Positions 45,417 through 52,058 of a stretch of 64,000 nt of DNA are shown here, piece by piece (within the stretch, counting starts at the first letter, position 1; each line of letters starts with the position of its first letter). Position numbers and translations under genes: made by a program. The stretch is taken from NCBI GenBank assembly GCA_947495295.1, contig CANLYJ010000002.1, positions 682,001 to 746,000 on the forward strand, read 5' to 3'. The notes under the pieces were generated by a model. That model saw only the letters and a list, made by a program, of their open reading frames with translations, was not told the origin of the DNA and ran no database searches. The stretch is from an uncultured Paracoccaceae bacterium. GTDB taxonomy: Bacteria > Pseudomonadota > Alphaproteobacteria > Rhodobacterales > Rhodobacteraceae.

Positions 45417-46217
45417 ATGGCGCACGCAAAGAACCACGATTATCACATTCTGCCACCGTCGATCTGGCCGCTGATTGGCGGCGTGGGTGGTTTCACCATG
45501 CTGTTCGGGGCGACCCTGTGGATGCACGGGTCAGGACCATACCTGTTCCTGATCGGTCTGGCGGCGGTGCTTTATGTTATGTACGCATGGTGGGCTGAAG
45601 TGGTCGTAGAAAGCCGGGTGGGCGACCACACACCGGTTGTACGCATCGGTCTGCGCTACGGCTTTATCATGTTTATCATGTCTGAGGTCATGTTCTTTGC
45701 AGCATGGTTCTGGTCGTTTTTCAAACACGCCATGTATCCAATGGGGCCGCAAAGCCCCGCGGTTGATGGGGTCTGGCCACCTGTGGGGATCGAAACATTC
45801 GACCCATGGCATCTGCCACTGATCAACACGCTGATCCTGCTCTGTTCGGGTGCTGCGGCCACATGGGCGCACCACGCGCTGGTTCACGAGAATAATCGCG
45901 AAGACATGAAATGGGGCCTGATCCTGGCCGTTGCACTCGGCGCGCTTTTTACGGTGTTTCAGGTCTATGAATACAGCCATGCCGCTTTTGGCTTCTCGGG
46001 TAATATCTACGGCGCAAACTTCTTCATGGCGACCGGCTTTCACGGGGCGCATGTTCTGATCGGCACTATCTTTCTGCTGGTCTGCCTGATCCGGCTACAG
46101 CGCGGGGATTTTACTCCGGAGAAGCATATCGGGTTCGAAGCCGCCGCATGGTACTGGCATTTCGTTGACGTCGTCTGGCTGTTCTTGTTTGCAGCTGTCT
46201 ATGTCTGGGGCGGCTAA
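45417..46217 (+). CDS. ctaE: Cytochrome c oxidase subunit III
   Basis: A 266-residue membrane protein with seven helices. Motifs include [65 protein letters not shown] and the C-terminal [25 protein letters not shown]. It contributes to stability and proton uptake of the aa3 oxidase. The repeat palindrome 46234-46259 follows, then surf1. Confidence 0.97.
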
Positions 46218-46233
46218 CAACAGAAGCCACAGC

Positions 46234-46259
46234 GTAAGATGGGTTTAAACCCATCTTAC
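46234..46259. repeat. GTAAGATGGGT palindromic repeat, copy 4 (perfect 26-bp palindrome)
   Basis: GTAAGATGGGTTT and AAACCCATCTTAC form an uninterrupted 26-bp palindrome, 17 nt after the ctaE stop. It belongs to the same family as 19193 and 43568. Confidence 0.9.
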
Positions 46260-46311
46260 ATTCATCAAACGCGCGAGCCATCTCGCGCGTTTCGCAGTTT
46301 GAAGGCCTGGA

Positions 46312-46989
46312 ATGCTGCGTAAGATTCTTTTCCCTCTGATCCTTGGTATCGCCGGATGTGGCGTGTTGGTCAGCCTTGGCCTGTGGCAGGTTGACCGGCT
46401 GGCCTGGAAGGAAGCCATCCTGACGGATATCAACGTCCGGCTCGCGGCTACCCCCAAACAGCTGTCATTTGATGTCACAGAAGCTGCGGATGAATATAGC
46501 CGTGTCACCCTGACCGGCACGCCCACAGGTGCGGAGCTGCATGTGCTTGTGTCCGGCACGGCGGCGGGCACGGGCTATCGGGTGATCTCGGCGTTTGACA
46601 CGCCTGAGGGGCTGATCCTGCTGGATCAGGGTCTCTTGGCCCTGGACAATAAGGACGCTCCGCCCGTGACTGTACCGATGCAGATCACGGGCACCTTGCT
46701 TTGGCCGGATGATGTCAACAGCAACACGCCCGACCCGGATCTGGGCAAGAATATCTGGTTTGCCCGCGATATCGATGCCATGGCTGATGCTTTGCAGACG
46801 GCGCCCCTGCTGGTTGTGGCCAGTACCACAATTCCGCCAGACCCACGCCTGACCCCCCTGCCTGTCACCACCGCAAATATCAAGAATGACCATCTGGAAT
46901 ATGCCATCACATGGTTCTTGCTGGCCGTGGTCTGGGCGATTATGACCCTGTACCTGATTATCCGGACAACCCGGCCAAAGGACGCCTGA
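46312..46989 (+). CDS. SURF1-family cytochrome oxidase assembly factor
   Basis: A 225-residue protein. One membrane helix lies near the N-terminus (about 4-25, with GLWQVDRLAWKE after it) and a second near 200-218 (YAITWFLLAVVWAIMTLYLI). In between is the SURF1 intermembrane/periplasmic domain with RVTLTGTPTG, LILLDQGLL and ARDIDAMADAL. SURF1 assists heme A insertion into subunit I. Gene order ctaE-surf1-thrC is conserved in roseobacters. Confidence 0.9.
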   Translation: MLRKILFPLILGIAGCGVLVSLGLWQVDRLAWKEAILTDINVRLAATPKQLSFDVTEAADEYSRVTLTGTPTGAELHVLVSGTAAGTGYRVISAFDTPEGLILLDQGLLALDNKDAPPVTVPMQITGTLLWPDDVNSNTPDPDLGKNIWFARDIDAMADALQTAPLLVVASTTIPPDPRLTPLPVTTANIKNDHLEYAITWFLLAVVWAIMTLYLIIRTTRPKDA

Positions 46990-46993
46990 ACCG

Positions 46994-48376
46994 ATGCGCT
47001 ATATTTCGACCCGTGGCACAGCCCCCATATTGAGTTTTGAGGAAGCCATGTTGACCGGGCTCGCCCGTGACGGCGGGCTTTACGTGCCCGAAGATATCCC
47101 CACCCTGACCAATACGCAGATCGCCGCGATGGCGGGTAAATCCTATGAGGATATCGCCTATGACGTCATGCGCCCGTTTATTGGCGACACGTTCAGCGAT
47201 GGGCAGTTTCGCGAATTGATTGCCCGGGCTTATACCGGTTTCGGCCACGCCGCCCGTGCCCCATTGGTGCAGCTGGACAGCAACCATTTCCTGCTGGAAC
47301 TGTTCCACGGCCCCACATTGGCCTTCAAAGACTTTGCCATGCAATTGATCGGCCAGATGTTTCAGGCTGCGCTTAGCCGTTCTGGTGATCGGGTGACGAT
47401 TGTGGGGGCCACATCCGGCGACACGGGCTCTGCCGCGATCGAGGCGTTTCGGGGGCTGGATGCGGTGGATGTGTTTATCCTTTACCCGCATGGCCGGGTC
47501 AGCGAGGTGCAGCGCCGCCAGATGACCACCCCGACGGAAACGAACGTGCATGCGTTGGCTGTGGATGGTGATTTCGATGATTGCCAGGCGATGGTCAAAG
47601 ACATGTTCAACGATTTCACCTTCCGCGAAGAGGTGAAACTGGCCGGGGTGAATTCAATCAACTGGGGCAGGGTACTGGCGCAGGTGGTTTATTATTTTAC
47701 AGCCGCCGTGTCGCTGGGCGCGCCGCATCGGCAGGTCAGCTTTACCGTGCCAACCGGCAATTTCGGCGATATCTTTGCCGGCTATGTTGCCAAACAGATG
47801 GGCCTGCCGATTGCTGACCTGGTGGTTGCCACCAACCGCAATGACATTCTGCATCGCACATTGGAAACCGGTGCCTATACCAAGGAAGGGGTCACCCCAA
47901 CGATCAGCCCGTCCATGGATATCCAAGTCAGTTCCAATTTCGAACGCGCCTTGTTTGACGCTTACGGGCGGGACGGGGCGGCGGTGACCGGGCAGATGGA
48001 TGACCTGAAACAGGGTGGTTTTCAGATCAGTCAGGGCGCCTATCAGATGCTGAAGGACGCGTTCAAATCGGGCCGCGCATCCGAGGAAGAGACGCAGGCC
48101 GCGATCAAATCCTACCGCGCCAAACATGGTGAGCTGTTATGCCCGCACACGGCCGTAGGGGTGCATGTGGCCGAGGCGCATCTGGGCACGACCCCTATGG
48201 TCACGCTCGCCACGGCCCACCCCGCGAAATTCCCCGATGCCGTGAAAGCGGCTTCTGGCGTCGCGGCCCCCCTTCCCCCGCGCATGGCGGACCTGTATGA
48301 CCGACCAGAGCGCGTGACGCGCGTAGCAGGGGAATTGGCTGCCATTCAGGCTGTCATCAGGGAACGGATCACATAA
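46994..48376 (+). CDS. thrC: Threonine synthase
   Basis: A 460-residue PLP enzyme converting O-phosphohomoserine to threonine. The PLP lysine is in FHGPTLAFKDFAMQLIG (about residues 98-114). GATSGDTGSAAIEAF binds the cofactor phosphate. VPTGNFGDIFAGYVAKQMGLP is a further family motif. Length fits the long, proteobacterial type. It begins 5 nt after surf1, and the M16 peptidase TTG start follows its stop directly. Confidence 0.96.
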   Translation: MRYISTRGTAPILSFEEAMLTGLARDGGLYVPEDIPTLTNTQIAAMAGKSYEDIAYDVMRPFIGDTFSDGQFRELIARAYTGFGHAARAPLVQLDSNHFLLELFHGPTLAFKDFAMQLIGQMFQAALSRSGDRVTIVGATSGDTGSAAIEAFRGLDAVDVFILYPHGRVSEVQRRQMTTPTETNVHALAVDGDFDDCQAMVKDMFNDFTFREEVKLAGVNSINWGRVLAQVVYYFTAAVSLGAPHRQVSFTVPTGNFGDIFAGYVAKQMGLPIADLVVATNRNDILHRTLETGAYTKEGVTPTISPSMDIQVSSNFERALFDAYGRDGAAVTGQMDDLKQGGFQISQGAYQMLKDAFKSGRASEEETQAAIKSYRAKHGELLCPHTAVGVHVAEAHLGTTPMVTLATAHPAKFPDAVKAASGVAAPLPPRMADLYDRPERVTRVAGELAAIQAVIRERIT

Positions 48377-49645
48377 TTGACGATTGAACTACACACGCTG
48401 TCCAACGGGTTTCGGATTGTTACCGAACATATGCCCGGGCTGAAATCATCCAGTATCGGGATCTGGGTACAGGCCGGCGGGCGGCACGAACGGGTTGAAC
48501 AGAACGGGATCGCCCATTTCCTGGAACATATGGCGTTCAAGGGGACCAAGACGCGGTCAGCCTTGCAAATCGCCGAAAGCATCGAAGATGTGGGCGGCTA
48601 TATCAACGCCTATACCAGCCGCGAAATGACCGCTTATTACGCCCGCGTGCTGGAAGACGACGTCGCATTGGGCCTTGATGTGATCGCGGATATCCTGCTG
48701 AACCCGGTTTTTGACCCTGCCGAGATTGAGGTCGAACGCGGCGTGATCCTGCAGGAGATCGGTCAGGCGCTGGATACGCCCGACGATATCATCTTCGATT
48801 GGCTGCAAGAGGTGGCTTATCCCGATCAGGCGCTGGGCCGCACGATCCTTGGCCCGACAGAGCGGGTCAGCGCGTTTTCCCGCGATGATCTGCAAGGCTT
48901 TGTGGGGGAGCATTATGGCCCCAACCAGATGATCCTTGCCGCCGCCGGTGCGGTGGATCACGCCGAGATTGTGAAACAGGCAGAGGCGTTGTTCGGCCAT
49001 TTGCCCGCCGTCGCCCGCGCGCCCGAACTGATGCAAGTGGCCAGTTTTGGCGGTGGCGAACGGCGCGAGAACAAGGCGCTGGAGCAGGTGCATTTTGCAC
49101 TGGCGCTGGAAGGGCCGACTTATCGTGATCCCGCGATCTATACGGCCCAGATCTATGCCAGCGTCATGGGCGGGGGCATGTCGTCGCGCCTGTTTCAGGA
49201 AGTGCGCGAAAACCGTGGGCTGTGCTATGCGATCTTTGCGCAGGCCGGGGCCTATGAAGATACCGGGCTGACCACGATCTATGCAGGTACCAGTGCTGAA
49301 CAGATCGGACAATTGGCCAATATCACCATCGATGAGATGAAGCGGGCAGGCGATGATATGACCGCCGAAGAAGTCGCCCGTGCGCGTGCCCAGATGAAGG
49401 CGGGTCTGCTGATGGGGCTGGAAAGCCCGTCAAACCGCGCCGAGCGTCTGGCGCGGCTTTTGTCGATCTGGGACCGGATTCCAACCATTGACGAAACGGT
49501 TGAACGTATCGACGCGGTGACCACGGGTGATGTCAAAGCCTTTGCCAGACAAATGGCCGGGCAGGCGGGGACGGCCATGGCGCTTTATGGTCCGGCAGAG
49601 GCGGCACCGACGCTGGATGCGTTAAAGGCCCGGCTTGCTGCCTGA
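48377..49645 (+). CDS. M16-family zinc peptidase
   Basis: A 422-residue insulinase/mitochondrial-processing-peptidase relative. The inverted zinc motif HFLEHMAFKGT (HxxEH) is at about residues 51-61. ENRGLCYAIFAQAGAYEDTG is the family's C-terminal substrate region. The start codon is TTG immediately after the thrC TAA, preceded by CAGGGAACGG about 12 bases upstream; no better in-frame ATG exists before the zinc motif. Roles in processing exported peptides are only inferred. It is coupled to the next GNAT gene by a TGATG overlap. Confidence 0.93.
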   Translation: MTIELHTLSNGFRIVTEHMPGLKSSSIGIWVQAGGRHERVEQNGIAHFLEHMAFKGTKTRSALQIAESIEDVGGYINAYTSREMTAYYARVLEDDVALGLDVIADILLNPVFDPAEIEVERGVILQEIGQALDTPDDIIFDWLQEVAYPDQALGRTILGPTERVSAFSRDDLQGFVGEHYGPNQMILAAAGAVDHAEIVKQAEALFGHLPAVARAPELMQVASFGGGERRENKALEQVHFALALEGPTYRDPAIYTAQIYASVMGGGMSSRLFQEVRENRGLCYAIFAQAGAYEDTGLTTIYAGTSAEQIGQLANITIDEMKRAGDDMTAEEVARARAQMKAGLLMGLESPSNRAERLARLLSIWDRIPTIDETVERIDAVTTGDVKAFARQMAGQAGTAMALYGPAEAAPTLDALKARLAA

Positions 49646-50229
49646 TGCTGGGGACCAAAAAGAAGGTCCGCATCGAAACCGAGCGGTTGACGCTGCGCCC
49701 GCCGATCCATGGGGATTTCCGGGCCTGGACAGCGTTGCGCCGTGACAGCGAAAGCTTTCTCAAACAATGGGAGCCGACCTGGGCCTCTGATCATCTGACC
49801 CGCAAGGCCTTTACCAACCGGGTCTATTGGGCGCAGCGGTCCATCGCCAATGGGACGGCGGTGCCGCTCTTCTTGTTGCGGCGGTCCGATGACACGCTGC
49901 TTGGTGCCATCACGCTGGACAATATCCGGCGTGGCCCGGCGCAGGCGGGCACAACAGGCTATTGGATCGGCGCACCCTTTGCCCGGCAAGGCTACATGAA
50001 AGAGGCGATAGAGGCCGTCGTCCATCATGCCTTTACCGTGCTGGATATCAGCCGGATGGAAGCCGGGTGCCTGCCGGAAAACGATGCCTCGCGCCGCTTG
50101 CTGGAGAAATGCGGCTATAAATACGAGGGCGTTGCGCAAAGCTATCTGCAGATCAACGGGCGTTGGCGGAACCATGTGCTTTATGCCAATCTGCGCCATG
50201 ACCGGCGTGGCAAAACGGATGTGGGGTAG
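49645..50229 (+). CDS. RimJ/RimL-type GNAT acetyltransferase
   Basis: A 194-residue GNAT protein with RIETERLTLRPPIHGDFRAWTALRRDS at the start, GTTGYWIGAPFARQGYMKEAIEAVVHHAF (acetyl-CoA loop RQGYMKEA) and ENDASRRLLEKCGYKYEGVAQSYL. This is the RimJ/RimL subfamily that acetylates ribosomal protein N-termini or antibiotics. It overlaps the M16 peptidase stop by one base. Target unknown. Confidence 0.88.
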   Translation: MLGTKKKVRIETERLTLRPPIHGDFRAWTALRRDSESFLKQWEPTWASDHLTRKAFTNRVYWAQRSIANGTAVPLFLLRRSDDTLLGAITLDNIRRGPAQAGTTGYWIGAPFARQGYMKEAIEAVVHHAFTVLDISRMEAGCLPENDASRRLLEKCGYKYEGVAQSYLQINGRWRNHVLYANLRHDRRGKTDVG

Positions 50230-50233
50230 CGGA

Positions 50234-50923
50234 ATGATCCGCATGGCGGGCCTGCCATGGGTCTGTCTGATCTTTCCGCATGCCCTGTGGGCCGACAATC
50301 CAATACTGCGCCTTGGTGTCGAAAGGTCTGACGCCCAAGACGCGGCACTGGCCTATCCAGATGAAGCCACTTGGCGCTGCGACCCACCTTTCACGCCAGC
50401 AACACTGTCGGCCCGCCAGCCGCTGATCGCCAATTGGGTCGACGAACGGTTTTTCCCTGATGCTGCAGCGCAGGCCAGAAATATCGTCGTCCGCCGTGCA
50501 AATCAGGCGGAGACTCAAACACAGAGACGTCAGTTTGAGCGCGAAGCCTTGCATCGATCTGAGGTCGACTTGCAATTGAATGTGTTTTTTCAACTCTGCG
50601 ATTACGAAGGCTTTATCGATATCATCGCGGTTGATTATGAATTGCTTGGACAGATTGGTGATTTGCCCGTCGCACTGTCCGGCACCAGAACACCTGAAGA
50701 TGCAAATGATCTTCAAATCACCTATGTCGGGCAAAAGTGGGATCGGCAGGACGACACGTTTTCGGCGCGCTATTCCTATTTGGGAAACACGGTTGGCCAA
50801 ATGAATATATCATTGGGTTTGCATGAGAATGGGTTTGTCGAAACCATTGATGGTGGTTTGTTGGATGCTGATATCACCATGTTCGATATGACAATCAATG
50901 TTCAAAAAGGGGCTTATGATTGA
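50234..50923 (+). CDS. Exported protein of unknown function, member 1 of a pair
   Basis: A 229-residue protein counted from ATG 50234. The signal peptide at about 1-19 ends HALWADN. The mature part contains a Cys in WRCDPPF and one in FFQLCDYEGFIDII, repeated acidic/aromatic blocks and no recognised catalytic motif. The track's 50027 start runs through the GNAT gene. Its DNA is markedly more A/T-rich than the flanking genes. Its stop overlaps the next gene as TGATG, so the pair is co-translated. I do not recognise the family. Confidence 0.68.
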   Translation: MIRMAGLPWVCLIFPHALWADNPILRLGVERSDAQDAALAYPDEATWRCDPPFTPATLSARQPLIANWVDERFFPDAAAQARNIVVRRANQAETQTQRRQFEREALHRSEVDLQLNVFFQLCDYEGFIDIIAVDYELLGQIGDLPVALSGTRTPEDANDLQITYVGQKWDRQDDTFSARYSYLGNTVGQMNISLGLHENGFVETIDGGLLDADITMFDMTINVQKGAYD

Positions 50924-51585
50924 TGGGTGCCCGCCATGCCATCTTTGCCCGTGTGCTAGGCGCTGCATTGCTGCTTCATCCCACTGACGTTCTTGCGCAA
51001 GAACCCAGTGGGATGTTGAACATTTCCTTTGATGCAGAAGCGACGATGCGACCAGCAACGGGCAATGACATAACCTGCCCTGCAAGTTTCGCACCCGCCT
51101 TGATCCAGGTGATTACGACTCCAGAAACTGACATGCGTGGTACGGTTCATCAAACCGGCCCGGTGGTCCGTCGTGGTGTTATGACGGAAAGAACGGCCAC
51201 CACACCCGCGTTTCAAAGCCGGGTTGCGATTGAAGTTACCGGATGCAGTCTGAAACGTCATTTTCTGCCGGTGTCCGGGCAGATCACCGTTGAAATTGAT
51301 AAAGGCGGGTCCGCAGCCTATCGTCAGGTCTTTATGACTGAAACTATCCCAACCACACGGAGCTTTAGGACTGATTATCATGCTGTCCTGATGGGGCCGG
51401 AACGGGCCTTCGGCGTCACTTATTACGCCGATCCGCTGCTATCAGCGACGCAGAACGCGGTGGGTGTGTTGCGCATTTGGCTATCGCAAAGCTGCGACAC
51501 GGGCGATATATGCATAGATGTCGGAACCTGTGAATATGGCGTTGGAACTGTGGCGGCCCGGCTTGTCATTGCGGATGCGGGGTAG
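50923..51585 (+). CDS. Exported protein of unknown function, member 2 of a pair
   Basis: A 220-residue protein with a signal peptide ending DVLAQ (about residue 26). Four or more cysteines are visible (ITCPASF, VTGCSLK, SQSCDTGDICIDVGTCEYG), suggesting disulfides in the periplasm or outside the cell. Its start overlaps the end of the upstream exported protein. It is followed by two strong palindromes. No family was recognised; together they resemble a small acquired secreted-protein module. Confidence 0.68.
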   Translation: MGARHAIFARVLGAALLLHPTDVLAQEPSGMLNISFDAEATMRPATGNDITCPASFAPALIQVITTPETDMRGTVHQTGPVVRRGVMTERTATTPAFQSRVAIEVTGCSLKRHFLPVSGQITVEIDKGGSAAYRQVFMTETIPTTRSFRTDYHAVLMGPERAFGVTYYADPLLSATQNAVGVLRIWLSQSCDTGDICIDVGTCEYGVGTVAARLVIADAG

Positions 51586-51610
51586 AAAAATCTTCGTTAC
51601 GAAGATTTTT
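51586..51610. terminator. Bidirectional terminator after the exported-protein pair
   Basis: AAAAATCTTCG, TTA and CGAAGATTTTT form a perfect 11-bp stem directly after the TAG stop. It ends in T5 on one strand and, read on the other strand, also ends in T5, so it can stop transcription from both sides. Confidence 0.8.
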
Positions 51611-51618
51611 CCCGTCAC

Positions 51619-51640
51619 CAGATTTTTAGCTAAAAATCTG
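51619..51640. repeat. 22-bp perfect palindrome between convergent genes
   Basis: CAGATTTTTAGCTAAAAATCTG is uninterrupted. It lies between the terminator and the end of the minus-strand DUF gene and may be a second terminator for that gene or a binding site. Confidence 0.6.
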
Positions 51641-51641
51641 T

Positions 51642-52058
51642 CTACTTCGCGCGCAGCCGATTGTTGCGCGCATTGTGTTCCAACTCTACCAGCCCCAGCA
51701 TTTCCAGCACGGGCGAGACGTAGTTGGCGAACCGACCCCGATAGCCTTTGCGCAGCCCGTAATAACCGCCGACCGGGTTATCGTCGCTGCGCGCCCAATG
51801 TTCCAGCGTGCCTTCCTTGACCGGTTTGCCTTCGTCCGCGTTGCCCAGTGGCATCCAGTCGCCATGGGCTTTCAGCATGGCATGGGCATCCTCAATGGCG
51901 CGCAGTTGGTAGGATAGTCGCGTCTTGCCCACCTGTACGACCAGTGCAGGCGGGTCAGCTGCCTCATCCTTCCAGACCTCAAAATCAGAGCTTTGTGGCG
52001 GTGTTTTCAGGATCCACGGGTCGCCTGCGACCCCCATCCCAAATGTGACGCGGTTCAT
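51642..52058 (-). CDS. Conserved protein of unknown function paired with SRPBCC protein
   Basis: A 138-residue protein. Visible blocks are FGMGVAGDPWILKTPP, VQVGKTRLSYQLRAIEDAHAMLKAHGDWMPLGNADE and NPVGGYYGLRKGYRGRFANYVSPVLEMLGLVELEHNARNNR. There is no signal peptide or membrane segment. The ATGA overlap with the SRPBCC gene indicates one operon. I do not assign a family beyond conserved hypothetical. Confidence 0.72.
   Translation of the reverse strand: MNRVTFGMGVAGDPWILKTPPQSSDFEVWKDEAADPPALVVQVGKTRLSYQLRAIEDAHAMLKAHGDWMPLGNADEGKPVKEGTLEHWARSDDNPVGGYYGLRKGYRGRFANYVSPVLEMLGLVELEHNARNNRLRAK

Follow-up and report, generated by a model that had tools for sequence, protein, structure and literature searches.

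Chaperone-usher pilins and the spore coat U proteins (SCPU, CsuA-B) are exported, beta-rich and carry a pair of cysteines. Periplasmic effector-immunity pairs consist of two small coupled genes with a patchy distribution. The two adjoining genes described here, g1 and g2, recall both of these systems. They share with SCPU and CsuA-B the export signals, a cysteine pair and, according to a low-confidence model, a richness in beta strands, but none of the nine g1 or nine g2 proteins matches a Pfam domain, and at none of the four sites where the pair occurs did we recognise a neighbouring chaperone or usher gene. They are small, coupled and patchily distributed like effector-immunity genes; unlike these, both products carry export signals, the two may be homologous to each other and no secretion system or toxin domain lies nearby.

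Taxonomically restricted (orphan) genes have been studied in Bacillus (PMC10003748). Such genes resemble g1 and g2 in having no recognised relatives outside a small species group and no assigned function. Compared with the genes covered there, g1 and g2 differ in being kept as a unit over two genera and four sites, both with export signals. We found no published description of such a gene pair in the literature searched.

Results

g1 and g2 overlap and encode proteins with signal peptides

A first-pass annotation of the window (the whole stretch of DNA that was analysed, 64,000 nucleotides) had reported two adjoining reading frames with signal peptides and of no recognised family. Both frames are present (Table 1), and the stop codon of g1 and the start codon of g2 have one nucleotide in common (TGATG). 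The signal peptides, assessed by eye and by hydropathy (hydrophobic core, small residue before the cut site), cover about residues 1-20 of g1, with the cut between LWA and DN, and about residues 1-25 of g2, with the cut between VLA and QE. By this assessment both proteins carry the N-terminal signal peptide of Sec-exported proteins, and hydropathy showed no transmembrane stretch past it in either of them.

Table 1. Features of the g1-g2 locus, in window coordinates
Feature	Position	Strand	Remarks
thrC	46994-48376	+	Named by reading of translation
M16 peptidase	48377-49645	+	Named by reading of translation
GNAT acetyltransferase	49645-50229	+	Pfam PF13302; directly upstream of g1
g1, predicted secreted protein, 229 aa	50234-50923	+	ATG 50234 to TGA 50921-50923
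g2, predicted secreted protein, 220 aa	50923-51585	+	ATG 50923 to TAG 51583-51585
Hairpin	51585-51611	+	13-bp arms, 1-nt loop, T5 end; likely g2 terminator
22-bp palindrome	51619-51640	-	Likely terminator of the DUF6855 gene, not part of the pair
DUF6855 gene, convergent neighbour	51642-52058	-	Pfam PF21619, 224.9 bits

Searches of the curated families of Pfam, NCBIfam, PADLOC and PHROGs gave no match above cut-off for g1 or g2, and a sequence-profile search of the PDB returned nothing significant (best E 0.26 with five-row and 0.59 with nine-row profiles), in agreement with the lack of a recognised family reported earlier. We modelled both structures from five-sequence alignments. The g1 model consists mostly of strands at low confidence (mean pLDDT 55), the g2 model is unusable (mean pLDDT 33), and a fold search with the g1 model yielded nothing significant (best E 0.12); these models are too poor to name a fold.

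g1 contains cysteines C11 (within the signal peptide), C49 and C122, and g2 contains C52, C108, C191, C197 and C203. The cysteines that had been proposed to form disulfides are thus present, and two in each protein (C49 and C122 in g1, C52 and C108 in g2) are invariant among the nine copies; each protein is probably held by one disulfide.

The two genes had also been described as A/T-rich relative to their neighbours, and this is borne out by their composition. The GC content is 0.51 for g1 and 0.55 for g2. At third codon positions (GC3) it is 0.53 for g1 and 0.54 for g2, the two lowest values among the 54 open reading frames of the window, which have a median of 0.67.

The pair follows a conserved block of genes

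thrC, the M16 peptidase gene, the GNAT gene and g1 follow each other unbroken. g1 begins 4 bases past the GNAT stop codon, and in the relative G027 the GNAT stop and the g1 start overlap as ATGA. Because of this spacing, the simplest view of the pair is as the final part of a thrC-M16-GNAT operon and not as a free-standing module; GNAT and g1-g2 probably belong to one operon. The earlier description of the pair as bounded by palindromic terminators does not hold, since no terminator lies upstream, where the operon continues, and only the first of the two downstream hairpins belongs to the pair.

The GNAT gene is present in all 57 genomes of the genus. thrC, M16 and GNAT were contiguous in the 30 loci that we examined, while the gene after GNAT varies by species. 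Across the genus, the 3' end of the operon is therefore a variable position (L027-L052), and it is here, after the conserved genes, that the pair sits. In G012, the genome without the pair whose GNAT is the most similar, GNAT is followed directly by a hairpin, and this by an ankyrin-repeat gene, an HxlR-type regulator and the same DUF6855 gene (the ankyrin-repeat and HxlR names come from reading of the translations, not from library matches).

Two hairpins lie between g2 and its convergent neighbour

We found both the hairpin and the 22-bp palindrome that the first-pass annotation had placed after the pair. The first base of the hairpin is the final base of the g2 stop codon, and the palindrome ends one base short of the convergent DUF6855 stop codon. 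The A/T-rich arms of both give a U tract in the transcript. Perfect inverted repeats of this kind number 8 in the window, compared with 0-5 in composition-shuffled copies. Folding is much better than for shuffled sequence: taken together, the 71 nt give z = -4.0 on the + strand and -4.7 on the - strand, and the g2 hairpin by itself gives z -3.3 on the + strand.

Both hairpins are kept in the four orthologous loci. All 13 pairs of the g2 hairpin are retained in the four orthologues, two of which carry one two-sided change from A-U to G-C, although with four sequences this conservation is not significant against a shuffle control. A consensus terminator scan did not list the g2 hairpin, whose A/T-rich 3' arm doubles as the T run. 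From their sequence and placement, the two hairpins are best read as transcription terminators of g2 and of the DUF6855 gene. They resemble intrinsic terminators between convergent genes in that a hairpin with an A/T-rich stem stands directly behind each stop, and nothing about them is unusual in this respect.

The core of the g2 hairpin was found at one other site of the genome (L060; G000:C2, around 124277), between two genes that we take to be bchY and bchZ. A doublet of like kind, with the g2-type hairpin core, lies there at L060 1469-1525. In the window, two perfect hairpins 7 nt apart stand at 46234-46292; they separate cox3 from SURF1, which run in the same direction, and are kept in G015. 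It may be that such small doublets recur between genes throughout the genus, which would slightly weaken the reading of the g2-DUF6855 doublet as two independent terminators. Bacteriochlorophyll synthesis genes (bchY- and bchZ-like by reading) are apparently present in the source genome, and on account of these an aerobic anoxygenic phototroph is the probable source of the DNA.

Nine linked copies occur in two genera

A search for the pair across genomes recovered nine linked copies, distributed over two genera and four genomic sites. It took in 57 genomes of the source genus, 54 of the second genus and a single genome from each of about 400 genera of the family. g1 was detected in five of the 57 genomes of the source genus and g2 in the same five, the other 52 being without the pair. 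Four of the five (G000, G015, G024 and G027; loci: the window, L011, L012 and L013) carry it at the window site; in a tree built from M16 plus GNAT they group as a single clade, supported at 100/100. In the fifth (G052, locus L014), whose g1 is 26% identical, the pair lies at another site, between a GGDEF-EAL gene and a gene that we read as lipB, with a tRNA-Leu gene about 0.9 kb away.

In the second genus of the family, four of the 54 genomes carry the pair (G499, G628, G632 and G609; loci L065, L070, L071 and L072), and in all four the gene after g1 is a relative of g2. Three of these have similar neighbours (gatB, pepT and a DnaJ gene), and G609 has the pair at another site. The g2 of G632 (L071 4962-5735) lacks the stop position of its close relative G628 and has a C-terminus about 29 residues longer. 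No genome in the search had a confirmed g1 without g2.

Family-wide searches with the five-row g1 profile (396 genera) and the nine-row g1 profile (186 genera) brought up no third genus. The family-wide draw had passed over the second genus, which surfaced through G499 in a later, order-wide one. Given this miss, more carriers beyond the nine copies likely exist. Plasmid and phage collections contained no relative of g1 or g2, and viral contigs no confirmed one. Weak matches in G092 (L015), in G141 (L016) and in the IMG/VR contig L059 were dropped as spurious, each lying antisense to a normal gene.

The pair had been likened to an acquired accessory module. Much of this description fits: g1 and g2 form an accessory, patchily distributed two-gene unit with predicted export and a distinct codon composition, and they have neither orthologues in all relatives, nor normal composition, nor a known domain. 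Marks of a mobile element are absent at the window pair (no flanking direct repeats, integrase or tRNA), and the acquisition is not very recent, the pair having already been in the ancestor of the four-species clade.

We also considered a self-moving cargo unit with the palindromes as its ends. Four different sites, a low GC3, palindromes on one side and the tRNA-Leu gene near the G052 pair would agree with such a unit. Against it, there is no integrase, the pair occupies one site in all four sister species, and three species of the second genus share a similar neighbourhood. We rejected the idea that the palindromes delimit a mobile element because they follow the stops of two convergent genes, no second copy or other hairpin stands upstream and no convincing direct repeats flank the unit. 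A mobile unit of this kind is very unlikely.

g1 and g2 are conserved in their motifs and evolve fast

In all nine copies g2 comes directly after g1, the two overlap by 1 or 4 nt and both proteins have signal peptides. The residues invariant across the nine g1 proteins include C49, P52, R87, R88, C122, Y124, Y135, G139 and G142; R87 and R88 belong to a VRR motif (residues 86-88) and those from C122 onward to a segment of the form C-x-Y...Y...G..-G. The nine g2 proteins have in common C52, P53, G107, C108, L115 and G119, among others (CP and GC...L...G). These motifs are conserved down to 15-25% identity in the second genus.

Among the four sister species, dN/dS of g1 and g2 ranges from 0.19 to 0.48, and in most comparisons their dN exceeds that of thrC, M16, GNAT and DUF6855 by a factor of about 5-10. 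At the level of coding sequence, these values show that both genes are under purifying selection while evolving fast. A chance or decaying pair of reading frames without function, which the missing domain and the narrow distribution could suggest, is refuted by these patterns: dN/dS stays well below 1 in the four species and the motifs persist in the other genus. We find this reading scarcely credible.

dS between G000 and G015 varies from gene to gene, from 0.04 to 0.59 (SURF1 0.04, g2 0.08, g1 0.16, GNAT 0.54; window 45417-51585 versus L011). Such jumps suggest recombination between close relatives across this region.

g1 and g2 may be diverged paralogues

Aligned as single sequences, g1 and g2 resemble each other at or near the level of chance. 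With signal peptides included, their nine-row profiles align over 177 columns (P 3.7e-4, 36% probability); this alignment matches the two cysteine positions, the VRR segment and, near the C-terminus, a segment of VGxL type. After removal of the signal peptides, the alignment covers 57 columns with a probability of 5.6% and a score of 25.0, compared with a maximum of 23.4 in 200 column shuffles; the second cysteine is matched in the 177-column alignment but not in this shorter one. This similarity is suggestive, and not proof, of an old duplication from which g1 and g2 would have diverged.

The weakness of the profile similarity leaves room for another reading, in which the two proteins are unrelated, periplasmic or extracellular, and serve an envelope function that evolves fast; their genes would be co-transcribed, and the proteins would not belong to one complex. 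It would also agree with the absence of structural evidence for contact, the models being poor. The strict linkage speaks against it, as order, adjacency and overlap are kept in nine of nine copies over two genera and four sites. We consider two unrelated proteins unlikely.

Discussion

According to our analysis, g1 and g2 are an undescribed, taxonomically restricted accessory pair. On the explanation that we favour, their products form an exported heterodimer, encoded at the end of an operon and derived from an old tandem duplication. We regard this explanation as evenly balanced between right and wrong.

As we picture it, the thrC-M16-GNAT operon would end with g1 and g2, and translational coupling of these two cistrons would keep the synthesis of their products in step. 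The hairpin behind g2 would terminate this operon and the adjoining palindrome the convergent DUF6855 gene. Both proteins would be exported by Sec, as the signals in their sequences strongly indicate, and each would fold as a beta-rich domain closed by one disulfide. Outside the cytoplasm, the two presumably bind each other as a heterodimer that stems from the tandem duplication. The complex might, quite tentatively, serve as a periplasmic or surface binding complex that faces a changing partner; such a role would fit the fast evolution and the patchy distribution. As the neighbours differ between sites, the genome context points to no pathway.

A different role for two exported proteins is that of an effector and its immunity protein: one would harm competitors or modify the envelope, and the partner would neutralise it in the periplasm, with the coupling of the genes protecting the producer. 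Obligate pairing, overlapping genes, signal peptides in both proteins, a patchy presence at several sites and fast evolution are in line with this. On the other hand, neither protein has a toxin or immunity domain or a PADLOC match, the recognised neighbours at the four sites include no secretion-system gene, g1 and g2 evolve at similar speed, and their possible homology would be unusual for an effector and its inhibitor. We judge an effector-immunity pair to be improbable.

Returning to the exported heterodimer, we also considered a more specific form of it. g1 and g2 would then found a new family of secreted heterodimers in Rhodobacteraceae. Its two halves would derive by duplication from one new, disulfide-locked beta domain, and the pair, here encoded at the end of a housekeeping operon, would serve as an exchangeable module for surface functions or antagonism. 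In this full form the proposal is doubtful.

Through the analysis, what had been two separate hypothetical proteins become a defined family of two genes, with nine members, invariant residues and four sites. Species-restricted secreted proteins are a modest and ordinary kind of accessory find, and the interest is raised slightly by how strictly the two genes stay paired in both genera and at all four sites. If g1 and g2 form a fast-evolving surface or antagonism complex, they would extend what is understood of species-level differences among these bacteria.
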